A stretch of 22,300 bases of DNA, from positions 1 to 22,300 of IMG/VR virus record IMGVR_UViG_3300019093_000068, one strand, 5' to 3'. Source of the DNA: a virus. The stretch's first letter is position 1, and each line of letters begins with the position of its first letter. A program made the position numbers and the translations under genes. A model generated the notes under the pieces. That model worked only from the letters and a program-made list of their open reading frames with translations, had not been told where the DNA came from and did no database searches. This document shows, piece by piece, positions 1-22,300 of this stretch.

Positions 1-222
1 ATACAAGGTACATTAGGATATCAAGGCTTACAGGGTTGGGAAGGTGTACAAGGATTTACAGGCACACAAGGTCCAGTTGGGGTTGGTACTCAAGGTACTG
101 ATGGAAGTCAAGGTACTACAGGTAGTACAGGAGCTTTTGATATTTCATTGGCAGCGTTCAAACAATTAGTAGCAGACAGTACGGACTTTGCAGATTTCCA
201 AAGTAGAATAGCAGCTTTATAA
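1..222 (+). CDS. Collagen-like tail fibre/adhesin, C-terminal end (partial)
   Basis: The reading frame is open from base 1 and ends at TAA 220-222; the 5' part lies outside the window. The visible 73 residues begin with about 15 Gly-x-x triplets, many with Gln before Gly (QGT, QGL, QGP, QGT), which is the collagen-like triple-helix pattern common in phage fibre shafts. A short non-collagen tail follows (FDISLAAFKQLV onward) and ends in Ala-Ala-Leu. Such trimeric rods usually carry or extend receptor-binding parts at the tail tip. The next gene, 20 bases downstream, is also fibre-like, which supports the role. Which fibre or baseplate protein it belongs to cannot be told from this fragment. 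Confidence 0.75.
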   Translation: MQGTLGYQGLQGWEGVQGFTGTQGPVGVGTQGTDGSQGTTGSTGAFDISLAAFKQLVADSTDFADFQSRIAAL

Positions 223-2683: not shown

Positions 2684-3427
2684 ATGATAGATTTAGGAAT
2701 GTATTGTCTTTGTTATGTAGGCAAAGAACACAAAAAAATTCAGTTTGATCAGCGAAACATCATGTGTGGCGCTGCTAATTATGCACCTGCAGACTATGTT
2801 AATCTTCAGCATAGAGGGTTCATTATGGATAATATTGGTGAAAGTATTAGCCATATGAATAACGATTTTGGCAGTTTAACGGGGCTATACTGGGTTTGGA
2901 AGAATGCCAAGCATGATTTTAAAGGCACAAACACTTATAGAATTTATTGGGATGAGGAACTTAGTTTAAAACCCAATAGAGTACATGTTCCTAAAGCTAA
3001 AGATATAGTTACAGCCATAAAAGGTTTTGCTCCACATGTGGATAATGTCTATGATCACTTTAGTCATTGTCATAATAATTTAGGATGGCAGCTACTTTAT
3101 GGATTGGCAGGTGATAGACGTATACCTATTACTGTTGATATGATTAATGGATTGAGAAATTACAAATATCTCATACCATTTCATATGTTTACAGCAGATT
3201 CTGCTACTTTTGACCGTATATGTGAAGTACTTTTCACTGTATTATTTGAATTTCATGCTAATTATGCTAGTTTTCTTCCTGAAATATACAATAGAAATCA
3301 GCAAATTAGATTTTATGACTTTTTTGGCGAACGTATTTTACACCTTATTTTAACTAATAATTACCATTTTTTAGGTAATGTCGATGTTACACATTTAAAT
3401 ATACTGGATATAGATCATCATGCTTGA
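2684..3427 (+). CDS. DUF4422 glycosyltransferase-like protein
   Basis: A 247-residue protein. Residues 49-74 carry the hallmark of the DUF4422 family (DNIGESISHMNNDF, then LTGLYWVWKN), followed by YRIYWDEEL at 85-93. Family members sit in capsule and LPS clusters and are treated as glycosyltransferases; a histidine-rich stretch near 123-131 (YDHFSHCHNN) lies where the family has conserved polar residues. Donor and acceptor sugars cannot be read. It is the first gene after a consensus sigma70 promoter and overlaps the next gene by 8 bases, so the two are co-transcribed. No clear Shine-Dalgarno is seen before ATG 2684. Its place beside fibre genes suggests modification of a virion or host glycan (inference). 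Confidence 0.7.
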   Translation: MIDLGMYCLCYVGKEHKKIQFDQRNIMCGAANYAPADYVNLQHRGFIMDNIGESISHMNNDFGSLTGLYWVWKNAKHDFKGTNTYRIYWDEELSLKPNRVHVPKAKDIVTAIKGFAPHVDNVYDHFSHCHNNLGWQLLYGLAGDRRIPITVDMINGLRNYKYLIPFHMFTADSATFDRICEVLFTVLFEFHANYASFLPEIYNRNQQIRFYDFFGERILHLILTNNYHFLGNVDVTHLNILDIDHHA

Positions 3428-4682
3428 AGCAGATAAAATTCAACCCCATTTACTAGAATATATTAAAGATCCAACGGATCCCGAACGCAATTTTGCCATA
3501 GGTTTGCAGTATGATTTACTAGGTCAATCAGCTAGCGCAGTCAGTTTCTTTTTAAGAACAGCTGAACGTACGGATGATGAGCTATTAAGATATGAATGCT
3601 TACTTAGAGCAGCACTATGTTTTGAAAGACAAGGGTCTAGGAACTTTACCGTAAAAGGTCTATTGCTTCATGCAGTGGCGTTGCAGCCAAAGCGTCCTGA
3701 AGCCTACTATCACCTTAGTAGATTCTATGAAAGAAAGCCAGAAGATGGGCATTGGAATGAATGTTATACAGCAGCCAGCATCGGCGAAAGTGTTGCTGAT
3801 GATATTAATTCTGGATTAAGAACAGATATAGGTTATCCAGGTAAAGATGCTATTAGATTTCAAAAGGCCTTAAGTAGTTGGCACTGTGGGCTGTGTGATG
3901 AATCCCGTAGTTTGTTTAAAGAACTAATGCGTTCAAAAGAACTTTCAGAAGATTATAAAAAGATCATTTATAGTAATTTAAAATACATGAGTAATTATGT
4001 AGAGATTCCTTTTGATAATTATGAGCCTTCTAAAAATTATAAATTAAGATATAATTTCCCAGGATCAGAAACTATAGAAACAAACTATAGTGAAGCTTAT
4101 CAAGATATGTTTGTATTGAGCATGTTAAATGGTAAAAGAGATGGCACATTTATTGAAATTGGTGCCGGCAGACCATTTTATGGAAACAATACTGCATTAT
4201 TAGAAAAGCAATTTAATTGGCGTGGTATTAGTATTGATTTAGATGAACGCCAAGTTAGTACAGAACGTCGTACACCTTTCCTAATTAAAAATGCACTAGA
4301 AATTGATTATGCCAAAATTATTAGGGAAATGAATTTAGGACCAGCAGTTGACTATCTTCAATTAGATTGTGATCCGGCAGAAGTTACTTTTGAAATCCTA
4401 AAAAAGATTCCTTTTGACGAATATAAATTCAAAGTTATTACCTTTGAGCATGATCACTATAACACAGATAGAAAAGATTTAAGAGAATTATCAAGAGAGT
4501 TTTTAAAATCTAAGGGATATACCCTAGTGGTCAATGATATTGCTCCAGATGAATGGCGTAATTATGAAGACTGGTGGGTATGTGCTGAATATATTAACAA
4601 GGATATATTAAACAAGATGATTCTTATCAATGACAAAGTTAAGAAAGGCGAAGATTACGTTTTATCAGGCAGAGGTTATTAA
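3420..4682 (+). CDS. TPR-like protein fused to FkbM-type methyltransferase
   Basis: A 420-residue two-part protein. Residues 1 to about 200 are helical and TPR-like (alternating Ala/Leu/Tyr helices such as RPEAYYHLSRFYERKP), as in phage and bacterial glycosyltransferase helper domains. From about residue 220 the sequence resembles FkbM-family SAM methyltransferases: QDMFVLSMLNGKRDGTFIEIG contains the Gly-x-Gly SAM loop (FIEIGAGRP, about 244-252), then WRGISIDLDE binds the SAM ribose. Later DYLQLDCDP and VITFEHDHY fit the FkbM core. FkbM enzymes O-methylate sugars or polyketides. ATG 3420 overlaps the DUF4422 gene by 8 bases, and its TAA shares a base with the next ATG (TAATG at 4680-4684), which points to one coupled operon. 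The substrate is unknown. Confidence 0.75.
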   Translation: MLEADKIQPHLLEYIKDPTDPERNFAIGLQYDLLGQSASAVSFFLRTAERTDDELLRYECLLRAALCFERQGSRNFTVKGLLLHAVALQPKRPEAYYHLSRFYERKPEDGHWNECYTAASIGESVADDINSGLRTDIGYPGKDAIRFQKALSSWHCGLCDESRSLFKELMRSKELSEDYKKIIYSNLKYMSNYVEIPFDNYEPSKNYKLRYNFPGSETIETNYSEAYQDMFVLSMLNGKRDGTFIEIGAGRPFYGNNTALLEKQFNWRGISIDLDERQVSTERRTPFLIKNALEIDYAKIIREMNLGPAVDYLQLDCDPAEVTFEILKKIPFDEYKFKVITFEHDHYNTDRKDLRELSREFLKSKGYTLVVNDIAPDEWRNYEDWWVCAEYINKDILNKMILINDKVKKGEDYVLSGRGY

Positions 4683-5083
4683 TGATTCCAGTAATAGGCA
4701 CAGCAGTAGTTTTTGATACATATTGGGTTTCTAGGCTGTTAGCCAGTGTGGATTTCCCAGTGGAGAATTTTTTCATTGTTAATAACAATGGCAAAGGTGA
4801 AATTACAGAAGATCTTGACAACCTAGCCAAGATCAAGCATAGGTATATTAAAAAAATTCATGTATGCCATATGCCAGCTAATATGGGTGTGTCATTTTCT
4901 TGGAATTTAATTATTAAAAGTTATATGATGGCTCCATATTGGGTTATTGTAAATGATGATGTGAGTTTTGGTCCAGGATTGTTGGCTGAAATGTATCATA
5001 AAATAACTGGTGATCCAGAAGTGGGAATGATTCATGCCAATGGTGGAGACTTCAGTGTGTGGGTAGTTGGGATTTATTCTTAA
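4682..5083 (+). CDS. GT-A glycosyltransferase, N-terminal part (frameshifted)
   Basis: A 133-residue open frame from ATG 4682 (overlapping the upstream stop as TAATG). It begins MIPVIGTAVVFDTYWVSRLL, a nucleotide-sugar-binding beta-alpha start. It has YWVIVNDDVSFGPG with the metal-binding Asp pair at 92-93, the DxD-like signature of GT2/GT-A glycosyltransferases. The frame runs on as GDFSV and then into WVVGIYS and a stop at 5081-5083. The natural continuation (GSWDLFLIRD) is in another frame, reached by skipping two bases (TG, 5060-5061) in an alternating GTGTGTGGG stretch. This is therefore the front half of a single gene broken by a 2-base insertion, or read through by recoding, or an assembly error. 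Confidence 0.75.
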   Translation: MIPVIGTAVVFDTYWVSRLLASVDFPVENFFIVNNNGKGEITEDLDNLAKIKHRYIKKIHVCHMPANMGVSFSWNLIIKSYMMAPYWVIVNDDVSFGPGLLAEMYHKITGDPEVGMIHANGGDFSVWVVGIYS

Positions 5084-5463
5084 TCAGAGATACTGTGGTA
5101 AAGCAATATGGATTGTTTGATGAAAACATGTATCCGGCTTATAGTGAAGATGATGATTATATCATGCGTCTTGTACATAAACCAATTAAGAAAATTTTAG
5201 GATTAGATGCTAATTATTATCACGGTGCTGGTGATAAAACGCAATATCATTTTTATGGTGGTAACACACGTCGTAAAGATCCTGAATTTCAGCAAAAGGT
5301 TGATGCTGCACGTGATTTAAATATTGATTATTTGACTGATAAATGGGGAGAATATTGGCGAACGTGTTGGCCTACTTTTGAACCTTGGGAAGGCAAGGCA
5401 CATCATCTAAGCGAGCAGCGTTACGATTTAGAATTTATTAGAAGTAAATATGTAGGATTTTAA
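5059..5463 (+). pseudogene. GT-A glycosyltransferase, C-terminal part (frameshifted)
   Basis: This is the back half of the preceding glycosyltransferase, open to TAA 5461-5463. The first possible start is the GTG at 5059, with no ribosome site, so independent translation is doubtful. It reads GSWDLFLIRDTVVKQYGLFD, then AYSEDDDYIMRL. The acidic E-D-x-D-x-x-x-R block is the acceptor/catalytic-base region seen in GT2 enzymes, and 'LFDENMYPAYSEDDDY' fits that family closely. Removing two bases at 5060-5061 joins it to the first part, giving a protein of about 259 residues. Its stop codon overlaps the stop of the convergent Nudix gene (shared TTAA, 5460-5463). Confidence 0.7.
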
Positions 5464-5894
5464 ATCAAATCCATTACATCAAATACTGTTTGTAGTTTAG
5501 TCCTAATAACTCGACTATTAAAACTACTGCGTAATCCTTGATGTAATGGCTTTGGGGCTAGATCAATGGTACTCCAAGCCCACCCAGAATGCTCATCACT
5601 GATTGTTGGTATGAATTCGTTCTTAACTAAACAGAGATATGTGTGAAAATTGAACACGCTGTCATTACTAACAAATGTTTCCAAGGGAATTGATTTTAGA
5701 ATTTCAGGAGTAAATCCTAATTCTTCGTTTACTTCACGCATCAATCCTTGCCAAGCATTTTCACCTGCATCATTAGTGCCACCAACTAAACTCCAAGTGC
5801 CACGATGCTTGCCGTTGGCTTTTTGTAGTAGTAAAACACGACCTGTGTTTTTAGCATAAAATAATGCACCACTACAAACAATTTTTTCTTTCAT
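5460..5894 (-). CDS. Nudix hydrolase
   Basis: 144 residues from the ATG at 5894; this start overlaps the upstream gp15 stop as ATGA, implying translational coupling. The Nudix box is complete: Gly39, five residues, Glu45, seven residues, then REVNEELGF at 53-61, matching GX5EX7REUXEEXGU with all metal-binding glutamates. The strand before it (RGTWSLVGG) is also typical. Nudix enzymes cleave nucleoside diphosphates linked to another group, such as oxidised dNTPs, NDP-sugars, ADP-ribose or capped RNA; the substrate cannot be told here. T4 also carries a Nudix gene (nudE). It is unusual that it sits in a neck/tail operon, and it lies next to the glycan block, so an NDP-sugar substrate is one possibility (inference). 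Confidence 0.9.
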   Translation of the reverse strand: MKEKIVCSGALFYAKNTGRVLLLQKANGKHRGTWSLVGGTNDAGENAWQGLMREVNEELGFTPEILKSIPLETFVSNDSVFNFHTYLCLVKNEFIPTISDEHSGWAWSTIDLAPKPLHQGLRSSFNSRVIRTKLQTVFDVMDLI

Positions 5895-7540
5895 AACAAT
5901 ATACGCCAATATCCTTTGAGGTATTCACCTTCAAAACTTTTAACCCAACCAACTCCGTTCCATTTGTATTGGACATTTGTATATATGTTTGTTAGATAGC
6001 GTATGACATTTTTTGATATTGTGCTGTCAAAAATTATACGCCATTTTGTACCAGTCCACTCAATAATATCGTTAGTATTAGCTATAAAATCACTGCCATC
6101 TTGATTTCGCCAAGCACTAGGCCCATAGTCATTTGTAAATAGTTCATAAGTTATGCTGTCGTCTATTTGCGCTGATTGATCCAATCTAATCACTAATTTC
6201 CCTGCAATATTTAATACATCAAAATCTACAGGATGATTGTTAACATAAACTTCTGTTCGTAAAACTTTATTATGATCTATGGTAGTATCTATTCTATTAC
6301 TGGAATTTTCAGCAATCAAGGTTTCACGTATGCCACCACCAATATTATCAATGATCAAATACCTAGTACCAACGGTGGATGCAGGTAACCCGCTATTAGG
6401 ACCTTTAGTTTTTGGATCAATAATAGCATCAAATGTTCCCGGGCTATTGGGTCGATACTCACTGCCAATATCAGTATTACTTGGATAAGTGTCGGTGATC
6501 CATTCTATATTTAATATAGTTGGATCCAATGGATTGATAGCAATAGTGCCAACAACTTGAGTTCCATTAGGTTGAAGCAAGAATATTTTACTATCTCTAG
6601 AGTCCCATTGCCCAAGATGTTTGTCGAATATGATATTCCAATTAACTCGTTGTTCTGAATTTATATCAACATTGATTAAATCATTTTTATGTGACCCACT
6701 GGCATCTGGATAGAATATTCTAGCTTGTCCGCCATAAACAATAAGATTGTAATTGTCTATGACTGTAGCAGCAGCACCTATATTATTTAATTGAGTGGGA
6801 GCTATCCCTCCATCATCTACCCCTAATCCCTCAATATACCCGCCGCTACCTCGGCCTATTTGACTAAACATGCCCATGGACACACTTTCGATGACTCCTA
6901 GTCGTTTTACTTTACTTGGTGGGCTAATCCATATAGGCATGCTCAATGTCATTGTAGCAATATCAATTGGGCTGTCAGTGCCTATGGGAATTGATCGACT
7001 ACTAAAATTTATGTTATCCATATAGATCACACTTAAACTAGTCCAGTCTACATAATTGTCATTGGTTTGAATTTCAAGACTAGGATTGAACAACATCATC
7101 ATTTGTTCTAAAAGTTGTAATTTTTGTTCGGTACTGGAAGTCCAAATGTCTGCTTTCACTGTGAGTTTATAAGGTGTAGGCATGATTCTTTCTATGGTAT
7201 AGTTAGTACCTTCAGTACTAGTATATTCATCTCTGCCTGTTTCTGGATTGAATTCTATATTGCGTTCTCTTATGTTCATTTTGCCTACAAAAGTAGCATC
7301 GGCTAATCTATCTTTTTCCATTTCAAGGCTACTAATATATACAGCAATCCTTGGCATGCTGTTAATTTTATTTTCACTGTTTTGTCTTAAAATGTTTCCA
7401 ACTTGACGATCTTGGTCGCCATACATAACAGGCACTCTTGCTAAGGTGCCGTCGCTATATTTTACAACAAAATTACTGAGTAATCTTATAGTTTGTATAA
7501 GATAACGTCTTATTTGCCCGTCGTAGAAGAACTGAATAAT
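5891..7540 (-). CDS. gp15: Tail sheath stabiliser/completion protein gp15-like
   Basis: gp15 caps the contracted-sheath end of T4-like tails and joins tail to neck. The core reads RVPVMYGDQDRQ, then SMPRIAVYISSLEMEKDR, YTIERIMPTPYKLTVKADIW and DWTSLSVIYMDNI, the order seen in gp15 proteins. A further N-terminal segment, QFFYDGQIRRYLIQTIRLL, lies upstream of the first ordinary start (GTG 7435) and matches the gp15 N-terminus, so coding must extend to about 7537. The frame there begins only with ATT codons (7540, 7537) after an in-frame TGA (7546-7544); the true start is unresolved. The protein is about 549 residues against 272 in T4. The excess is a C-terminal extension with Trp-rich beta segments (NDIIEWTGTKWRII; VQYKWNGVGWVKSFEG) ending in GYWRILL. 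It is the middle gene of a minus-strand operon and overlaps the Nudix start. Confidence 0.75.
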   Translation of the reverse strand: MIQFFYDGQIRRYLIQTIRLLSNFVVKYSDGTLARVPVMYGDQDRQVGNILRQNSENKINSMPRIAVYISSLEMEKDRLADATFVGKMNIRERNIEFNPETGRDEYTSTEGTNYTIERIMPTPYKLTVKADIWTSSTEQKLQLLEQMMMLFNPSLEIQTNDNYVDWTSLSVIYMDNINFSSRSIPIGTDSPIDIATMTLSMPIWISPPSKVKRLGVIESVSMGMFSQIGRGSGGYIEGLGVDDGGIAPTQLNNIGAAATVIDNYNLIVYGGQARIFYPDASGSHKNDLINVDINSEQRVNWNIIFDKHLGQWDSRDSKIFLLQPNGTQVVGTIAINPLDPTILNIEWITDTYPSNTDIGSEYRPNSPGTFDAIIDPKTKGPNSGLPASTVGTRYLIIDNIGGGIRETLIAENSSNRIDTTIDHNKVLRTEVYVNNHPVDFDVLNIAGKLVIRLDQSAQIDDSITYELFTNDYGPSAWRNQDGSDFIANTNDIIEWTGTKWRIIFDSTISKNVIRYLTNIYTNVQYKWNGVGWVKSFEGEYLKGYWRILL

Positions 7541-7569
7541 ATTTCAACGGTGTTAAACCGAAGCCTCCA

Positions 7570-10338: not shown

Positions 10339-13300
10339 ATGGCCCAATTAAATTCACCAGGCGTAGCCGTAACAGTTATTGACGAAAGTTTTTATGCTCC
10401 AGCAGCACCAAGTACAGTACCATTTATCCTTGTAGCTTCAGAAGAAAACAAGCAAAACGGTGCTAATTCTGGTATTGCCACAGGCACATTAAAATCTAAT
10501 GCAGGTAAAGCATACTTAATTACAAGTCAGCGTGATCTAGCAGATACATTTGGAACACCAATATTTAAGACTGATGCTAACAGTAATCCAATTCATGCAG
10601 GTGAACAAAATGAATATGGTTTACAAGCAGCATATAGTTTATTAGGTGTTAGTAATAGAGCATATGTAGTTAGAGCAGACATTGATCTTAAAGCGTTAAA
10701 TGCTAAGGCTGAAGCCCCAACTGCTGAACCAGAAAGTGGCACGTATTGGTTAGATACTGCCAATAGTCATTGGGGTATTTTTGAATGGAATAATGCTCCT
10801 AGATCTAATAAACTTGGTCAAAAGTTTGCACCAAAAACTCCTATAGTTATTACAGACACTGCCAAAGTTGTCGATTATGCAGATGGTGATTATACACCAA
10901 AGGCATCAGTTGGCGTTATTGGTGATTATGCAATTGTAAGTTTAATGGACTTAAACACTGACTATAACGGTTCAGATGTATTGTATTTTAAGAGTCCAGG
11001 AAATGGCACAAGAATTGATGCTGGAACATGGGTAGTTGTAGGTAGTGAGGATTGGACACTTAGCTGGCCAGTAATAGTTTCAACTCAATCAAATGCTCTT
11101 GCACTTCGCAATCAAACTTTAAGTGTAAATGGCCAACCAAACATCACTTTTTTAGAAACAGATCAGCCAGGCACCATAACTTTAAACGAAGTAGCTGCAA
11201 AAATCAATGCTAATTTTGAAGATAACGGAGTTATCGCTTTAGTAAGAAATGGTGTAATAGAATTTTATGCATTAAATCGTCAATCATTTACAATTTCAGG
11301 TAGTGCATGTGCCGCATTAGGATTTGCACCAGGAACATATTCCCCAGTAACTTTGGCAATTCAACCATTGACCAATGCTCCAGAATTTGCTCCAGTTTTT
11401 GTAAGTGGAGTTACTCCAGGCACCAATGAAGGAGCCAGAACAGGCAGTGTTTGGATTAGAACTACTGAGCCTAAAGGCGGTGCAAAATTAGCCATAAAGA
11501 AATATAATACAGTAACAGAATCTTTTGATAAAGTTGTAGCTCCTTTATATGCCAGTGGTCATGCTGCAATTTTTGGATTAGATAGAAGTGGCGGCGGCGC
11601 AAATATTGCTGCTGGCACAGTATATTGTCAAACAAATACCACCGAAGTAGAAAGTGACATTGGGCCTTACGTTGCCGATTTTAGATTATTTAGAAAATCA
11701 ATGCAAGGGCCAAATAGTATTACTAGTAAGAAGATTGTTGATGGTTGGCATAATAGTACAGGTCAACATTCTATAAATATTAGAGAAGGTTTAGTTGGTT
11801 CAGCTAGTTTATCTAACATTGTTAATGTAGAATTTGGATTACTCAATAATGCAAGTGATGCAGATACAATTGCTGGAGCTATCAATGCTGCTGGTCTTGA
11901 GAATATTGAAGTTAGCGTTGATGCACAAAGAAGAATCATTATTAGCCATAAATATGGCGGTGATTTTAGAATTGGTGAAGGGGAGAACGGATTTTTAAGT
12001 GCATTAGGTTTTACTGATAATAAGAATGTTTATGACGCCAATGGCGTCGATGCGGATATTCAGTATACAGTAAGTTTATGGGAACCATTAAGATTTACTG
12101 CTAGTAAAGATAGTCCTTCAACATTGACAACAAATGGTACATTATGGTATAGCAGTGTTATTGATGAAATAGATCTTTTAATTCATAATGGCAATAATTG
12201 GGTTGGTTATGCTCATCCATCCAGTCCATATTATAATGCAACCGATGACAAAAAGACAGACCCAATGGGCCCAATAGTTAGTGCAACTGTTCCATTAACA
12301 CAAAGCGATAAAACAAGTTTACGTAATGGTGACTTATGGGTTGATACTAGTGATTTAGAAAACTTCCCTAAAATTTATAAATTTGACGAAGCTAAATCAG
12401 GACCTATTGCTAAGAAATGGGTTGAATTAGATGTCACAGATCAAAATACACAGGATGGTGTTTTGTTCCATGATGCACGTTATAATACTACTGGAATGAA
12501 CAGTGACATGCCAGGCGACGTCGTTGACTTATTAGTCAGTGATTATGTTGACTATGATGCTCCAGATCCTGCACTATATCCAAAAGGCATGTTGCTATGG
12601 AATCTACGTAGAAGTGGATTTAATGTTAAGAAATTTGTACATAATTATGTTAATATTGATGATAACAACGTAAGATATGAAGACGAATCAATGGCTGGTT
12701 ATTATCCACATCGTTGGATTACAGTAAGTGGTAACCAAGACAATGGCTGTGGTTCATTTGGTCGCAAAGCACAACGTAAAGTTGTAGTACAAGCGTTACA
12801 GGCCACAATTAACAGTGCAACAGATATCCGTGAAGAAGCAAGAGTGTTTAATTTAATTGCTTGCCCAGGATACCCAGAGTTAATTGGCGAAATGATCACA
12901 TTAAACTTTGATCGTGCTTTAACAGCATTTGTGGTTGGAGATACACCAGCAAGATTATTACCAGATGCTACAAGCTTGATGGCATGGGGTAATAATTTAC
13001 GTTTAGCAGTAGAGGACAATGATATTGGAGCCCCAAGTTATGATGAATATATGGCTATGTTCTATCCATGGGGATTTAGCAGTGACAATTTAGGAAATAA
13101 CATTGTAGTGCCTCCAAGTCATATGATGCTAAGAACTATTGCATTAAGTGATAATGTAAGCTATCCATGGTTTGCCCCAGCTGGAACAAGACGTGGTGGT
13201 ATTACAAATGCTACAAGTGTAGGTTATATTGATAGTGAAGGTGAGTTTAAAGTTACTGCATTAAATAACGGCCAAAGAGATACATTGTATGATGTAAAGA

Positions 13301-13692
13301 TTAATCCAATTACATTCTTCACAGGTGTAGGATTAGTCAATTACGGTCAGAAAACTCGTGCTAAGAATGCCAGTGCATTAGATCGTATCAATGTAGCAAG
13401 GTTAATTGTTTATATGCGCAGACAGTTAGATATTATTGCTAAACCATATGTGTTTGAGCCAAATGACAAGATTACAAGAGATGAAATTAAGAACAGTGTT
13501 GAAAGTTTCTTACTTGAGTTAGTTGGTCAACGGGCATTATATGACTATGTTGTAGTTTGTGATGATTCTAATAATACCAGTGCAAGAATTGATAAGAATG
13601 AGTTGTATGTTGACGTGGCCATAGTACCAGTTAAGGCTGTTGAATTTATCTACATACCACTACGCATAAAGAGTACTGGTGGTCTAAAATAA
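10339..13692 (+). CDS. gp18: Contractile tail sheath protein gp18, enlarged
   Basis: gp18 forms the helical sheath that contracts to drive the tube through the cell envelope. The N-terminus is typical (LNSPGVAVTVIDES), with LITSQRDLADTFGTP and EYGLQAAYSLLGVSNRAYVVR following as in T4-like sheaths. The C-terminal third (VARLIVYMRRQLDIIAKPYV, then YIPLRIKS) is the conserved sheath core. At 1117 residues it is far longer than T4 gp18 (659). The middle holds inserted beta-type modules that start with Gly-x-x-Trp (Trp137, 372, 603, 667: GTYWLDT, GSVWIRT, GTLWYSS, GDLWVDT), probably exposed on the tail surface. It is preceded by an exact late octamer and AGGAG, and followed by the tube gene. Confidence 0.93.
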   Translation: MAQLNSPGVAVTVIDESFYAPAAPSTVPFILVASEENKQNGANSGIATGTLKSNAGKAYLITSQRDLADTFGTPIFKTDANSNPIHAGEQNEYGLQAAYSLLGVSNRAYVVRADIDLKALNAKAEAPTAEPESGTYWLDTANSHWGIFEWNNAPRSNKLGQKFAPKTPIVITDTAKVVDYADGDYTPKASVGVIGDYAIVSLMDLNTDYNGSDVLYFKSPGNGTRIDAGTWVVVGSEDWTLSWPVIVSTQSNALALRNQTLSVNGQPNITFLETDQPGTITLNEVAAKINANFEDNGVIALVRNGVIEFYALNRQSFTISGSACAALGFAPGTYSPVTLAIQPLTNAPEFAPVFVSGVTPGTNEGARTGSVWIRTTEPKGGAKLAIKKYNTVTESFDKVVAPLYASGHAAIFGLDRSGGGANIAAGTVYCQTNTTEVESDIGPYVADFRLFRKSMQGPNSITSKKIVDGWHNSTGQHSINIREGLVGSASLSNIVNVEFGLLNNASDADTIAGAINAAGLENIEVSVDAQRRIIISHKYGGDFRIGEGENGFLSALGFTDNKNVYDANGVDADIQYTVSLWEPLRFTASKDSPSTLTTNGTLWYSSVIDEIDLLIHNGNNWVGYAHPSSPYYNATDDKKTDPMGPIVSATVPLTQSDKTSLRNGDLWVDTSDLENFPKIYKFDEAKSGPIAKKWVELDVTDQNTQDGVLFHDARYNTTGMNSDMPGDVVDLLVSDYVDYDAPDPALYPKGMLLWNLRRSGFNVKKFVHNYVNIDDNNVRYEDESMAGYYPHRWITVSGNQDNGCGSFGRKAQRKVVVQALQATINSATDIREEARVFNLIACPGYPELIGEMITLNFDRALTAFVVGDTPARLLPDATSLMAWGNNLRLAVEDNDIGAPSYDEYMAMFYPWGFSSDNLGNNIVVPPSHMMLRTIALSDNVSYPWFAPAGTRRGGITNATSVGYIDSEGEFKVTALNNGQRDTLYDVKINPITFFTGVGLVNYGQKTRAKNASALDRINVARLIVYMRRQLDIIAKPYVFEPNDKITRDEIKNSVESFLLELVGQRALYDYVVVCDDSNNTSARIDKNELYVDVAIVPVKAVEFIYIPLRIKSTGGLK

Positions 13693-13720: not shown

Positions 13721-14341
13721 ATGTCAATTGCAACATTAAATAGATTTACAGTGCCACTAGCTACAGATAGTAGTGCTAGTAGTCAAGGCACACTAATGCC
13801 AAAACTCAAGTATCGTTTTAGAATTTTATTTGAAAATTTTGGAATTAGCACACCAACAACTGAATTAACCAAACAGGTTCAAACAGCAGCTAAGCCAAAT
13901 GCACAGTTTGCAAATCAAGTTATTGAAACTTATAACAGTAAAATTAATTATGCTGGTAAAGTTACATGGCAAACTATTGCAATTACTTTGCGTGATGATG
14001 CTACTGGTGTAGTAAGTAAAATGATCGGTGAGCAAATGCAGAAACAATTCGATTTCTTTGAACAATCATCTGCAGCCAGCGGTACAGACTATAAATTCAC
14101 AATGAAAATTGAAGTATTAGATGGCGGTAATGGTATATGGAATGCTAATATTTTAGAAACTTGGGGATGTTATGGTTGTTATATTACACAAGCAAACTAT
14201 CAAAGTTTAAGCTATGCTGAAGCAACTCCGTCAACAATTGATTTAACAATTCAGCCTGATAACTGTATCCAGACTCCACAAGGTTCTGGTATTGGTGCAA
14301 ACGTTGGAAGAACTACAAGAACAATGGCCACAGGCGGTTAA
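13721..14341 (+). CDS. gp19: Tail tube protein gp19
   Basis: A 206-residue homologue of T4 gp19 (163 residues), whose hexamers stack into the inner tail tube. Typical segments are LKYRFRILFENFG (first strand of the tube fold), IETYNSKINYAGKVTWQTIA (corresponding to the 'NRKINVAGDRTF' region of T4), then FTMKIEVLDGGNG, ILETWGCYGCYIT and STIDLTIQPDNC, the final strand. It directly follows the sheath gene, as in T4. GGAG 11 bases upstream supports the start. The gene ends 14 bases before a strong terminator. Confidence 0.92.
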   Translation: MSIATLNRFTVPLATDSSASSQGTLMPKLKYRFRILFENFGISTPTTELTKQVQTAAKPNAQFANQVIETYNSKINYAGKVTWQTIAITLRDDATGVVSKMIGEQMQKQFDFFEQSSAASGTDYKFTMKIEVLDGGNGIWNANILETWGCYGCYITQANYQSLSYAEATPSTIDLTIQPDNCIQTPQGSGIGANVGRTTRTMATGG

Positions 14342-14427: not shown

Positions 14428-15501
14428 ATGACTAGTAAATTTAATTCATTATTAAATACTCTTGGTGCTGGATTCACTTTAAAAGATACAGCTAAAGGAT
14501 TCCTCAGACCTAAAGGGCAATTAGGTGATTGGCAACATGCTGCTAGGACCTTTACTGATGACAATTTTAGATTAGCGCCTAAAGCAAAATTTTTATATCA
14601 TGTTTACTTTGATATAAATGCTTCGGCATTGCGTGATACCAGTTTAAAAGATCGCCATCAATTTGAGATTGGATTATTAGTAAAAAGTGTCGATCTTCCT
14701 AAATTTTCTTTTAGAACAAGTACAGTAAATCAATATAATCGTAAAAAAGTAGTACAATTAACGCATGAATTACAACCTATAAATTTTAAATTTCATGATG
14801 ATAGATCACATATAATTAATAAACTTTGGCAAAATTATTATTCATATTATTATTCAGATCCATCAGTTGCTAGAAGTCAATTTTATACAAGAAATGCAAC
14901 AAACGGCCCAAATGATATTCAAGTTACTTATGGATTTGATAATAATTCGTCAATTCCTTTTTTTAATAAAATAGTATTATATCAACTCAATAAAAAAGAA
15001 TATAATAGTTATACATTGATCAATCCTTTGATCACATTGTTTAATCACGATACGCCAAATAGTGCAGAACAATCTGGGGGAAGTGCTGAATGTTCTATGA
15101 CAATAGCATATGAATCAGTTGCATATGATACAGGATCCATTACAGGGGATAATGTCATAGGATTTGCCAAAGATCATTATGATAAATTGCCAAGTCCATT
15201 AAGTCCTCTAGGCGGGGGAACAAAGACTTTGTTTGGAACAGGCGGTGTATTAGATGGGATTTCCAGTATTGCCGATAATCTTAATAAAGGCAATTACCTC
15301 TCTGCTGGTATTGCAGCACTTAATACATATGAAAATACAAGAGGTCTAACTAAAGCAGGAATTGCACAGGAAGGCACTAATTTATTAGGCGGGTTAGCAG
15401 TGATTGGAGTTGGAGCAGCTATCAGTGGTATTAAGGACACAGTATTCCCAGCTAAAAAGCCTAATAATTCAACTCAAGCTACTCCGCTAGATTTTCCGTA
15501 A
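14428..15501 (+). CDS. Tail-tube-like baseplate protein (gp48/gp54 type?)
   Basis: A 357-residue protein. Residues 45 to about 260 look like the tail-tube fold: AKFLYHVYFDIN (first strand), FEIGLLVKSVDLPKFSFRTS, a loop with VNQYNRKKVVQ, LQPINFKFHDD, then a helix rich in Tyr (WQNYYSYYYSDP) and late strands (SAECSMTIAYESVAYDTG). T4 has two larger tube homologues, gp48 and gp54, that begin the tube on the baseplate; this is the likely role but the assignment is inference. The C-terminal 90 residues are Gly-rich with a hydrophobic stretch (NLLGGLAVIGVGAAISGI, about 318-335), which could contact the tape measure or pack in the assembly. It lies after the gp19 terminator with its own late octamer. 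Confidence 0.5.
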   Translation: MTSKFNSLLNTLGAGFTLKDTAKGFLRPKGQLGDWQHAARTFTDDNFRLAPKAKFLYHVYFDINASALRDTSLKDRHQFEIGLLVKSVDLPKFSFRTSTVNQYNRKKVVQLTHELQPINFKFHDDRSHIINKLWQNYYSYYYSDPSVARSQFYTRNATNGPNDIQVTYGFDNNSSIPFFNKIVLYQLNKKEYNSYTLINPLITLFNHDTPNSAEQSGGSAECSMTIAYESVAYDTGSITGDNVIGFAKDHYDKLPSPLSPLGGGTKTLFGTGGVLDGISSIADNLNKGNYLSAGIAALNTYENTRGLTKAGIAQEGTNLLGGLAVIGVGAAISGIKDTVFPAKKPNNSTQATPLDFP

Positions 15502-19602: not shown

Positions 19603-21927
19603 ATGAGTGCAAATTTTCAACAAATAGCTAAAGATTTGGGTAGACAATTACAAACAAGGTTCCCTAGCCTAGAAAAATCCACTGCGGATGATAAACCTAT
19701 TGACGGTGTTAATTTAAAAGATGCTGATGCAAGAAAGTTTAACTTTGATTTTACCAGTGAAGACGGTGAAAAAATAGTAAATGTTACTATTAGCTTATCA
19801 GAAGATGGTGAGGATCCTGGGTTAGATGTGCAATGGAGTGATACTGTAGATAATAGGTCTTGGGATAGGTTTATTAGAAATATATTACCTAAATTTGCTC
19901 AAACACATGGATTAAATTTTAATGCACAGAATCCGTCTAAAACTAATTTAGATAAAAGGGATTCCTCAGAGGAAAATGATATGAATGAATCAAAACTTTT
20001 TGGTACTAGTAAGACCAGTTATCAAGATATAGGTGAGGCTAAAATTATAGTAAGACACAGTCAACCTATTAATTTAAACTCAATGAATGGAAGATCTCAA
20101 CGTATTGAGCACATTTATGTTGAAAATGCCATGGGAGAACGGTTTTTATATCCAATTAAGCATTTAAATGGTGCCAGAGCATTAGCCATGCATGTTTCAG
20201 AAGGCGGTCATCCATATGATGAAATTGGCCAGTATGTCATTGGACTTAGTGAGGAACTTAGCAAATTAAGATTTTTTAAGAATTATGTAGATCGTAGCCC
20301 TGTTATTAGTGAAAACATGGGTAATATTCAACAAAAAGTTATTGAACGTATTAATAGTATTAAAAAAGAAGTGCATAGTTTGCAATCAGTAAAAAATTAT
20401 GGGTTGTTTAAAGAGGATTTTGAATCAAATCAATCACAGGATGTGCCAGAAGAAGTGCTTAATGATTGGATTGATAGATTAACTGTACGTAGTTTTAATG
20501 AAGAATTAAAAACAGCATTTCCTTATATCTACAGATTAATTGATGAATCAGAATTGCCTGTTAAAGAAATTGATACAGAAGAGGATATGCTAAAGACTGA
20601 TGATGGTAAAAAAGATTCAAAGTTAAAAAACAAAAAAATCAAAGAACTCAGTGCTTTTGAAAATTATCTAGATCAAATAGTCAAAGAGGATGATGATTTA
20701 TTTAATGATAATGAGGAATTACAGGCACAGGCCATGGCTGAGTTAAAGGATTTATTTACTAATGAATTGCCATTAGGTACAGATGGCGATAATATTAGAG
20801 ATAGTGTAAAGGGAATTATAGATAATAATAAATTAAATCGTGCTTTTCATCTATTAGCAGATTTAGGTTTGGATGAAATGGATGCCAGACCAATTATAGC
20901 TTCATATTTAAAATCACATGATAAAGAAAATGGCACAGATTTTAGTGATAAATTAGGGTTTAGTATGACAATGTCTGCTGGAGCAGGAGCACCACCGCCC
21001 CCAGCAGCAATGGCACCTCCACCTGAAGCAGCAATGGCACCTCCACCTGAAGCAGCAATGGCACCTCCACCTGAAGCAGCAGCGCCACCACCTGAAGCAG
21101 CAGCGCCACCAGGAGCACCTCCACTAGGAGCACCTCCACCTGAAGCAGCAGCGCCACCAGGAGCACCTGGACCAATGATTCCAAATCCTGCTCCACTTGC
21201 TGAAAGTGGCAATGGGCGTAAATTAGTTGATGAAATTCGTAGTCGTATTAGTGGATTCTTTAATCAAACTGAGGGAACCTTTACTATAGGTGAAGAAGGG
21301 TTTGTTACAAAAATGTGTAAGGAACTCAAAGAAAAATATCATGTTCCCCCGGGCACTCATAAGGCTGATAGATTTGATCACATGGTAGAAAGAGCCTGCA
21401 ATAATATCATGGAAAAATACAAGCAGCGTCATAGTCATTCAAGAGAGATATCAGACATGAGAAAAATGGCTGGAATTATGGAAGCAGGAATGCAAATGCC
21501 TGGTATGGATGATATGGGTGATATGGATGGTATGATGAAGAATATTCGAAGTAAAATCCCATCTGGTAATATGAAATCTTCTAATACTAGCAGTGGCACT
21601 ATTAATGGAAAACCAGCTAGTTATGATGATGCAATGGGCAAATTCAAGGGTATGGCTGGTGGCATGGGGCTTGATGCCAGCGGTGATGATCCAGTAGGCG
21701 GTATGTATAAGGGAATTCAGGGCAAATTTGGTGATATGATGAAGGGAATGAAACTGCCTGGTATGCCAGGATCTGATTCATCTAAAAATTCGAATCCTTC
21801 AGTATCACCTACAAGAGCAGGTACTACGCCAGATCTCAAAGTAGCATTAGCTAAAATGAAGCCAACTAGTCCTGATGATGCTATGAGAATGATAGGTGAT
21901 CTTAAGAAGTTGGCAGGATTGGCTTAA
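19603..21927 (+). CDS. 774-residue modular unknown protein with PPPEAA repeats
   Basis: I do not recognise this family. Residues 1 to about 120 form an alpha/beta domain (FNFDFTSEDGEKIVNVTISL; DVQWSDTVDNRSWDRF). Residues 140-260 are a second globular part (AKIIVRHSQPINL; HIYVENAMGERFLYPIKHL). A charged helical stretch follows to about 440. Residues 463-531 are a Pro/Ala/Glu linker of repeated A-P-P-P-E-A-A units. After it comes a domain with EIRSRISGFFNQTEG, MCKELKEKYHVPPGTHKAD, then DMRKMAGIMEAG, a Met/Gly-rich tract and a last MIGDLKKLAGLA. Two sequences of the form Ile-x-Glu followed by Ala (IGE-A, IME-A) resemble T4 prohead protease sites. A core, scaffold or internal head protein is possible (inference). 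No ribosome site precedes ATG 19603. It ends before the terminator that isolates gp32. Confidence 0.75.
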   Translation: MSANFQQIAKDLGRQLQTRFPSLEKSTADDKPIDGVNLKDADARKFNFDFTSEDGEKIVNVTISLSEDGEDPGLDVQWSDTVDNRSWDRFIRNILPKFAQTHGLNFNAQNPSKTNLDKRDSSEENDMNESKLFGTSKTSYQDIGEAKIIVRHSQPINLNSMNGRSQRIEHIYVENAMGERFLYPIKHLNGARALAMHVSEGGHPYDEIGQYVIGLSEELSKLRFFKNYVDRSPVISENMGNIQQKVIERINSIKKEVHSLQSVKNYGLFKEDFESNQSQDVPEEVLNDWIDRLTVRSFNEELKTAFPYIYRLIDESELPVKEIDTEEDMLKTDDGKKDSKLKNKKIKELSAFENYLDQIVKEDDDLFNDNEELQAQAMAELKDLFTNELPLGTDGDNIRDSVKGIIDNNKLNRAFHLLADLGLDEMDARPIIASYLKSHDKENGTDFSDKLGFSMTMSAGAGAPPPPAAMAPPPEAAMAPPPEAAMAPPPEAAAPPPEAAAPPGAPPLGAPPPEAAAPPGAPGPMIPNPAPLAESGNGRKLVDEIRSRISGFFNQTEGTFTIGEEGFVTKMCKELKEKYHVPPGTHKADRFDHMVERACNNIMEKYKQRHSHSREISDMRKMAGIMEAGMQMPGMDDMGDMDGMMKNIRSKIPSGNMKSSNTSSGTINGKPASYDDAMGKFKGMAGGMGLDASGDDPVGGMYKGIQGKFGDMMKGMKLPGMPGSDSSKNSNPSVSPTRAGTTPDLKVALAKMKPTSPDDAMRMIGDLKKLAGLA
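21004..21075 (+). repeat. 24-bp tandem repeat, three exact copies
   Basis: Three identical units of GCAGCAATGGCACCTCCACC plus TGAA lie head to tail in frame, encoding Ala-Ala-Met-Ala-Pro-Pro-Pro-Glu. Degenerate 21- to 27-bp copies (GCAGCGCCACCA-type) continue to about 21170. Being a multiple of three, unit gain or loss would change linker length without breaking the gene. Confidence 0.9.
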
Positions 21928-22057: not shown

Positions 22058-22300
22058 ATGGCAACTTTAGCAGAAATTCGAGCAAAATTAAAAGAACAAG
22101 AAGTAAAGGGCGGCGGAACAGGTACCGGCGATCTTTCAATTTATCCTTTCTGGAATCTTAAAGAAGGAGGTGAATCGGCTGTAAGATTCCTCCCAGACGG
22201 CGATGACTCTAACACATTCTTTTGGGTAGAACGTGCTATGATCAAGCTGGAATTTGCAGGCATGAAAGGCGAGACAGACAGCAAAAAAGTTAATGTGCAA
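22058..22300 (+). CDS. gp32: Single-stranded DNA-binding protein gp32 (partial, 3' cut)
   Basis: The first 81 residues are visible; the gene runs off the window. gp32 coats single-stranded DNA in replication, recombination and repair. The start MATLAEIRAKLKEQEVKGGG is the basic N-terminal arm used for cooperative binding. Then IYPFWNLKEGGESAVRFLPD and NTFFWVERAMIKLEF match the opening strands of the gp32 OB-fold (T4: W-x-L-x-x-x-N-x-G-x-A-V-I-R-F-L-P). The zinc ligands would lie beyond the edge. AGGAG (22046-22050) eight bases upstream fixes ATG 22058. It is isolated from the late genes by a strong terminator and has a structured leader. Confidence 0.85.
   Translation, partial: MATLAEIRAKLKEQEVKGGGTGTGDLSIYPFWNLKEGGESAVRFLPDGDDSNTFFWVERAMIKLEFAGMKGETDSKKVNVQ

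Follow-up and report, generated by a model that had tools for sequence, protein, structure and literature searches.

A glycosyltransferase gene that is a single open reading frame (ORF) in its relatives is split in this contig by two extra bases, and the break is best read as a sporadic, unprogrammed frameshift (probability about 0.94). On this view the gene, normally one ORF of about 259 codons, belongs to a T4-like phage with a contractile tail, where it sits in a glycan cassette adjacent to a tail-fibre gene. In this single contig, 2 bp within a short run of alternating G and T would have been duplicated in tandem, a sporadic event that interrupts the gene; the resulting shift would be neither regulated nor used by anything. 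The preferred form of this reading, to which we give slightly better than even odds, is a real and recent null mutation, in which replication slippage would have knocked out the enzyme in this strain. Slippage ordinarily gives rise to 2-nt duplications within a short alternation of this kind.

One glycosyltransferase in two frames

The two fragments and the point at which the frame changes lie on the plus strand of the window, by which is meant the whole stretch of 22,300 nucleotides that was analysed.

4682..5083, plus strand: GT2-type glycosyltransferase, N-terminal half; 133 aa; contains NDDVSF; TAA at 5081
5059..5463, plus strand: glycosyltransferase, C-terminal half; 134 aa; GTG start; contains SEDDDYIMRL
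5055..5063, plus strand: frame-change point, GTGTGTGGG; two bases longer than in every relative

The C-terminal ORF (5059-5463) stands in the +2/−1 frame with respect to the N-terminal ORF (4682-5083), and the two overlap by 25 bases. The N-terminal half is native to about residue 126 and then runs through seven out-of-frame residues to its TAA, while the two extra bases are placed in GTGTGTG at 5055-5061. The frameshift is genuinely present in the sequence of the window. The first half matches positions 20-137 of phrog_29879 and the second half positions 137-170, a stretch that an intact relative matches in a single piece (positions 20-170, E 4.4e-23). Because the two matches abut at 137, both ORFs are parts of a single protein; the GTG that opens the C-terminal half is a chance start. 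A tblastn search of each half against the relatives leads to adjoining coordinates in one frame. The split profile match and the tblastn result thus bear out the claim of an earlier note on this DNA, that a single GT-A glycosyltransferase lies here in two frames, and the ORF calls agree with the coordinates and motifs it gave.

The family assignment comes from profiles and fold. The first half matches PF00535 with an E value of 4e-4 and 20.8 bits, under the curated cut-off of 23.3; the same profile is matched by 8 of 20 intact relatives, at best with E 3.5e-10. An intact relative was modelled with AlphaFold (mean pLDDT 66, moderate), and a Foldseek comparison of the model with the PDB aligned it to the GT-A enzyme 6p61 (E 8e-9, rmsd 3.7 Å over 200 columns, TM 0.54 by query) among 557 matches at E<=0.001, many of them GT2 enzymes. 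A sequence search of the PDB with the family profile gave zero matches. As modelled, the intact protein is GT-A-like, and on profile (phrog_29879, PF00535) and fold the glycosyltransferase belongs to GT2 / GT-A.

Four residues, N91, D93, E155 and D156, are invariant in the relatives. They belong to the NDD motif (residues 91-93), presumably nucleotide- or metal-binding, and to the ED(D) motif (155-156), which we take to hold the catalytic base, as is usual in GT2 enzymes. The break at residue 126 falls between them, so that in the window the two motifs occupy different frames and not the single polypeptide of a GT2 / GT-A enzyme. Since it separates these motifs, neither fragment would be expected to be active if the break is real.

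Homologues and repeat at the break

Scans of IMG/VR recovered 25 loci with one half and 24 with the other, and where a contig was recovered by both, the halves match neighbouring stretches in the same frame. Ten of these contigs align with the window over 4-10 kb at 87-90% nucleotide identity; a stop-free frame of 262 codons is open in each, and the gene is one uninterrupted ORF in all the remaining IMG/VR relatives found. At the break site, where the window reads AGTGTGTG, the ten close contigs read AGTGTG or AGTGTA and more distant relatives AAAGTG, AATGTA, GGTGTA and the like; within the family the length is six bases throughout. A pattern scan that left the spacer free from 3 to 13 bases matched 64 stretches, a few of them unrelated ORFs caught by the pattern, and every spacer was divisible by 3. 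The exact junction of the window occurs in no other viral contig searched. With homologues in a single frame and the junction unmatched elsewhere, the break is therefore private to the window contig. In the Phages collection, a nucleotide search gave zero matches, and a protein search gave only one distant glycosyltransferase for the first half (Pontimonas phage, 28% identity) and zero matches for the second.

The closest intact homologues of the gene are in IMGVR_UViG_3300019093_000067 and IMGVR_UViG_3300013006_001913 (phrog_29879 'galactosyl transferase'; PF00535 GT family 2). They share the neighbourhood of the window gene (fibre, DUF4422, FkbM-like, glycosyltransferase, NUDIX), and each half is 96-99% identical to them in protein sequence. 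The difference is that theirs is one 259-codon ORF, whereas the window copy has two additional bases. These homologues speak to the possibility that the fragments are two naturally separate proteins, a case the earlier note had raised. Both fragments have a possible start codon, but the break falls inside the GT-A fold and the relatives in IMG/VR proved to be single ORFs, which refutes this arrangement and leaves it a negligible probability.

The repeat itself is unremarkable. The window has one GTGTGTG where shuffles predict 2.4, so the motif is not commoner than chance; dinucleotide tracts of at least four units are absent from the window. For comparison, one study set its threshold for a dinucleotide simple sequence repeat (SSR) at five units and gives (TA)9-11 as the phase-variable case (PMC2651432). 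In the relatives the short GT alternation is eroded by synonymous valine-codon changes and by changes in the preceding codon. Many relatives are without the GT repeat, and a slippage tract is therefore not maintained.

These results weigh against a phase-variable on/off switch driven by GT copy-number slippage. A 2-bp difference, a GT alternation and a glycosyltransferase gene beside tail-fibre genes all invite the idea, yet the alternation has only 3.5 units, within chance, the relatives read AGTGTA, AATGTA or AAAGTA, and none of them is in an off state, which makes a switch very unlikely. Less probable again is a low-frequency form, in which slippage at the short alternation would turn the gene on and off within the population and the contig would have caught the off state. 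What the window gene shares with SSR phase-variable glycosyltransferase genes such as those of Haemophilus and Neisseria is a repeat-like stretch whose length differs so as to change the frame; in contrast to those genes, it has no long tract, an unconserved repeat, no off-state relatives and no known polymorphism in copy number. SSR phase variation calls for a tract that is longer than chance, conserved and variable in length, and the tract in the window is none of these.

A use of the shift in translation fares no better. The overlap of the halves, together with a GGAG 10 nt upstream of the GTG at 5059, might suggest a programmed +2/−1 ribosomal frameshift, or reinitiation at that GTG, yielding a functional split or fused enzyme. 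However, the 25-base overlap holds no X XXY YYZ slippery heptamer, in agreement with the earlier note, no relative found uses a programmed shift, all of them being intact, and the GGAG belongs to conserved Gly-Asp codons that are present in intact relatives too. The probability of this explanation is vanishingly small. Phage genes with a programmed −1 frameshift, of the gpG/gpGT tail assembly type, resemble the window gene in having two overlapping frames in a −1 relation, but the window gene has no slippery heptamer and its frame break is unconserved. Programmed −1 frameshifting would entail both an in-frame heptamer and a break kept in homologues, and neither is present here, all the other homologues found in IMG/VR having a single frame. 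Of the four explanations offered in the earlier note, a fresh inactivating mutation and an assembly error survive, while the switch and the programmed shift are unsupported.

Mutation or consensus error

The state of the second half bears on the age of the break. Its dN/dS against the ten close relatives is about 0.03-0.06, the same range as for the first half and for the relatives among themselves, and of its codon changes private to the window, 7 are silent and 2 alter an amino acid. Had this half drifted neutrally since the break, changes of the second kind would be expected to outnumber the silent ones several times over. The second half thus shows normal purifying selection, with a near-absence of decay, and the break is therefore either very recent, at the tip of the branch, or not real. 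An old pseudogene was rejected for the same lack of decay.

The source of the contig bears on whether the break is real. The contig IMGVR_UViG_3300019093_000067 (L027, L102), which has 22,367 bases and is 85-89% identical to the window, begins and finishes at the same homologous base. Exactly 123 bases are identical at both ends (window 1-123 and 22178-22300), and the longest exact match in the interior is 121 bases; contigs from other samples match the window exactly over longer interior stretches (278, 170 and 155 bases). Within IMG/VR, both end sequences of the window occur only at the two ends of this sister contig. JGI metagenome studies have used MEGAHIT with the k-list 23,43,63,83,103,123 (PMC6081815, PMC6126044). 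The ends suggest that the window and its sister are probably the paths of two strains between 123-mers that they share, in a single de Bruijn graph built at k=123.

The glycosyltransferase gene of the sister contig is intact, but one base that all the relatives compared have is missing from the contig, and this deletion shifts the frame of another gene.

Around window 8497, minus strand: virion structural gene hit by the sister contig's frameshift; 415 aa

It is the only such frameshift in 193 gene-by-contig comparisons (197 kb); the coding sequence compared in relatives from other samples, about 187 kb, has none. Elsewhere the pairwise alignments contain paired 1-nt gaps (e.g. 6174/6181 and 6316/6320), which compensate for each other and are not frameshifts. 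Were it true, a frameshift in this structural gene would be expected to be lethal; the deletion is therefore likely a consensus error, and the assembly probably contains false indels. The chance of both frameshifts landing in this assembly is about 0.03.

The sister contig's own frameshift thus makes error a serious option for the window: the gene of the strain would be intact, and the extra bases would exist only in the contig through a consensus, sequencing or amplification error. That the two bases occur in no other IMG/VR contig, that the downstream half has not decayed and that the frameshift in the probable sister strain from the same assembly is implausible, while relatives from other samples have none, all fit such an error. 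On the other side, a 2-nt tandem insertion is unusual for Illumina, and several reads would have to carry it for it to survive a k=123 assembly. Illumina reads seldom share the same erroneous 2-nt insertion, and in a de Bruijn assembly a k-mer is present only if reads contain it. Nor can a mix-up of strains in the graph create the insertion, since it is absent from every other known strain. Error is accordingly given somewhat less than an even chance, and a real, recent mutation in this strain is the reading we favour.

The surrounding phage genome

The window carries a T4-like structural region, with sheath, tube, head-tail adaptor, head closure and terminase identified by PHROG match. Upstream of it lie a fibre gene, a DUF4422 protein, an FkbM-like protein, the glycosyltransferase and a NUDIX hydrolase. 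The immediate neighbours of the interrupted gene are intact:

2684..3427, plus strand: DUF4422 (glycosyltransferase-like) protein of the putative glycan cassette; PF14393, E 6.7e-24
3420..4682, plus strand: FkbM-like methyltransferase domain protein with a TPR-like N-terminus, putative glycan cassette; the TPR_17 match is weak and the FkbM assignment is by sequence reading, not database match
5460..5909, minus strand: NUDIX hydrolase, convergent neighbour downstream of the glycosyltransferase

Several other features of the window deserve mention. A 33-bp intergenic insert at 7535-7567 with a CGGT-GTTAA-ACCG hairpin is missing from most close relatives. It is present, at 36 bp, in relative L004, which is otherwise 99.98% identical to L027 and differs from it by the insert, and its 14-base core also occurs in relatives L017 and L018; the insert may be a small mobile element or something like a terminator. 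The tail sheath protein (10339-13692) has 1117 aa, which makes it much longer than its T4 counterpart; the conserved sheath core (phrog_23) is confined to 770-1114. Two adjacent tail-tube-like proteins, at 13721-14341 (206 aa) and 14428-15501 (357 aa), both match phrog_4542. A Pro/Ala-rich 24/48-bp tandem repeat at 20978-21174 lies within a 774-aa ORF, whose protein similarity ends or falls after about residue 455 in three relatives; the repeat region is therefore hypervariable.

The shared 123-bp ends are a useful by-product: they make IMG metagenome 3300019093 the probable source of the contig, and its reads the relevant ones, and they warn of frameshifts in this assembly. The break itself is a routine single-contig frameshift in an accessory gene of a phage and matters little.
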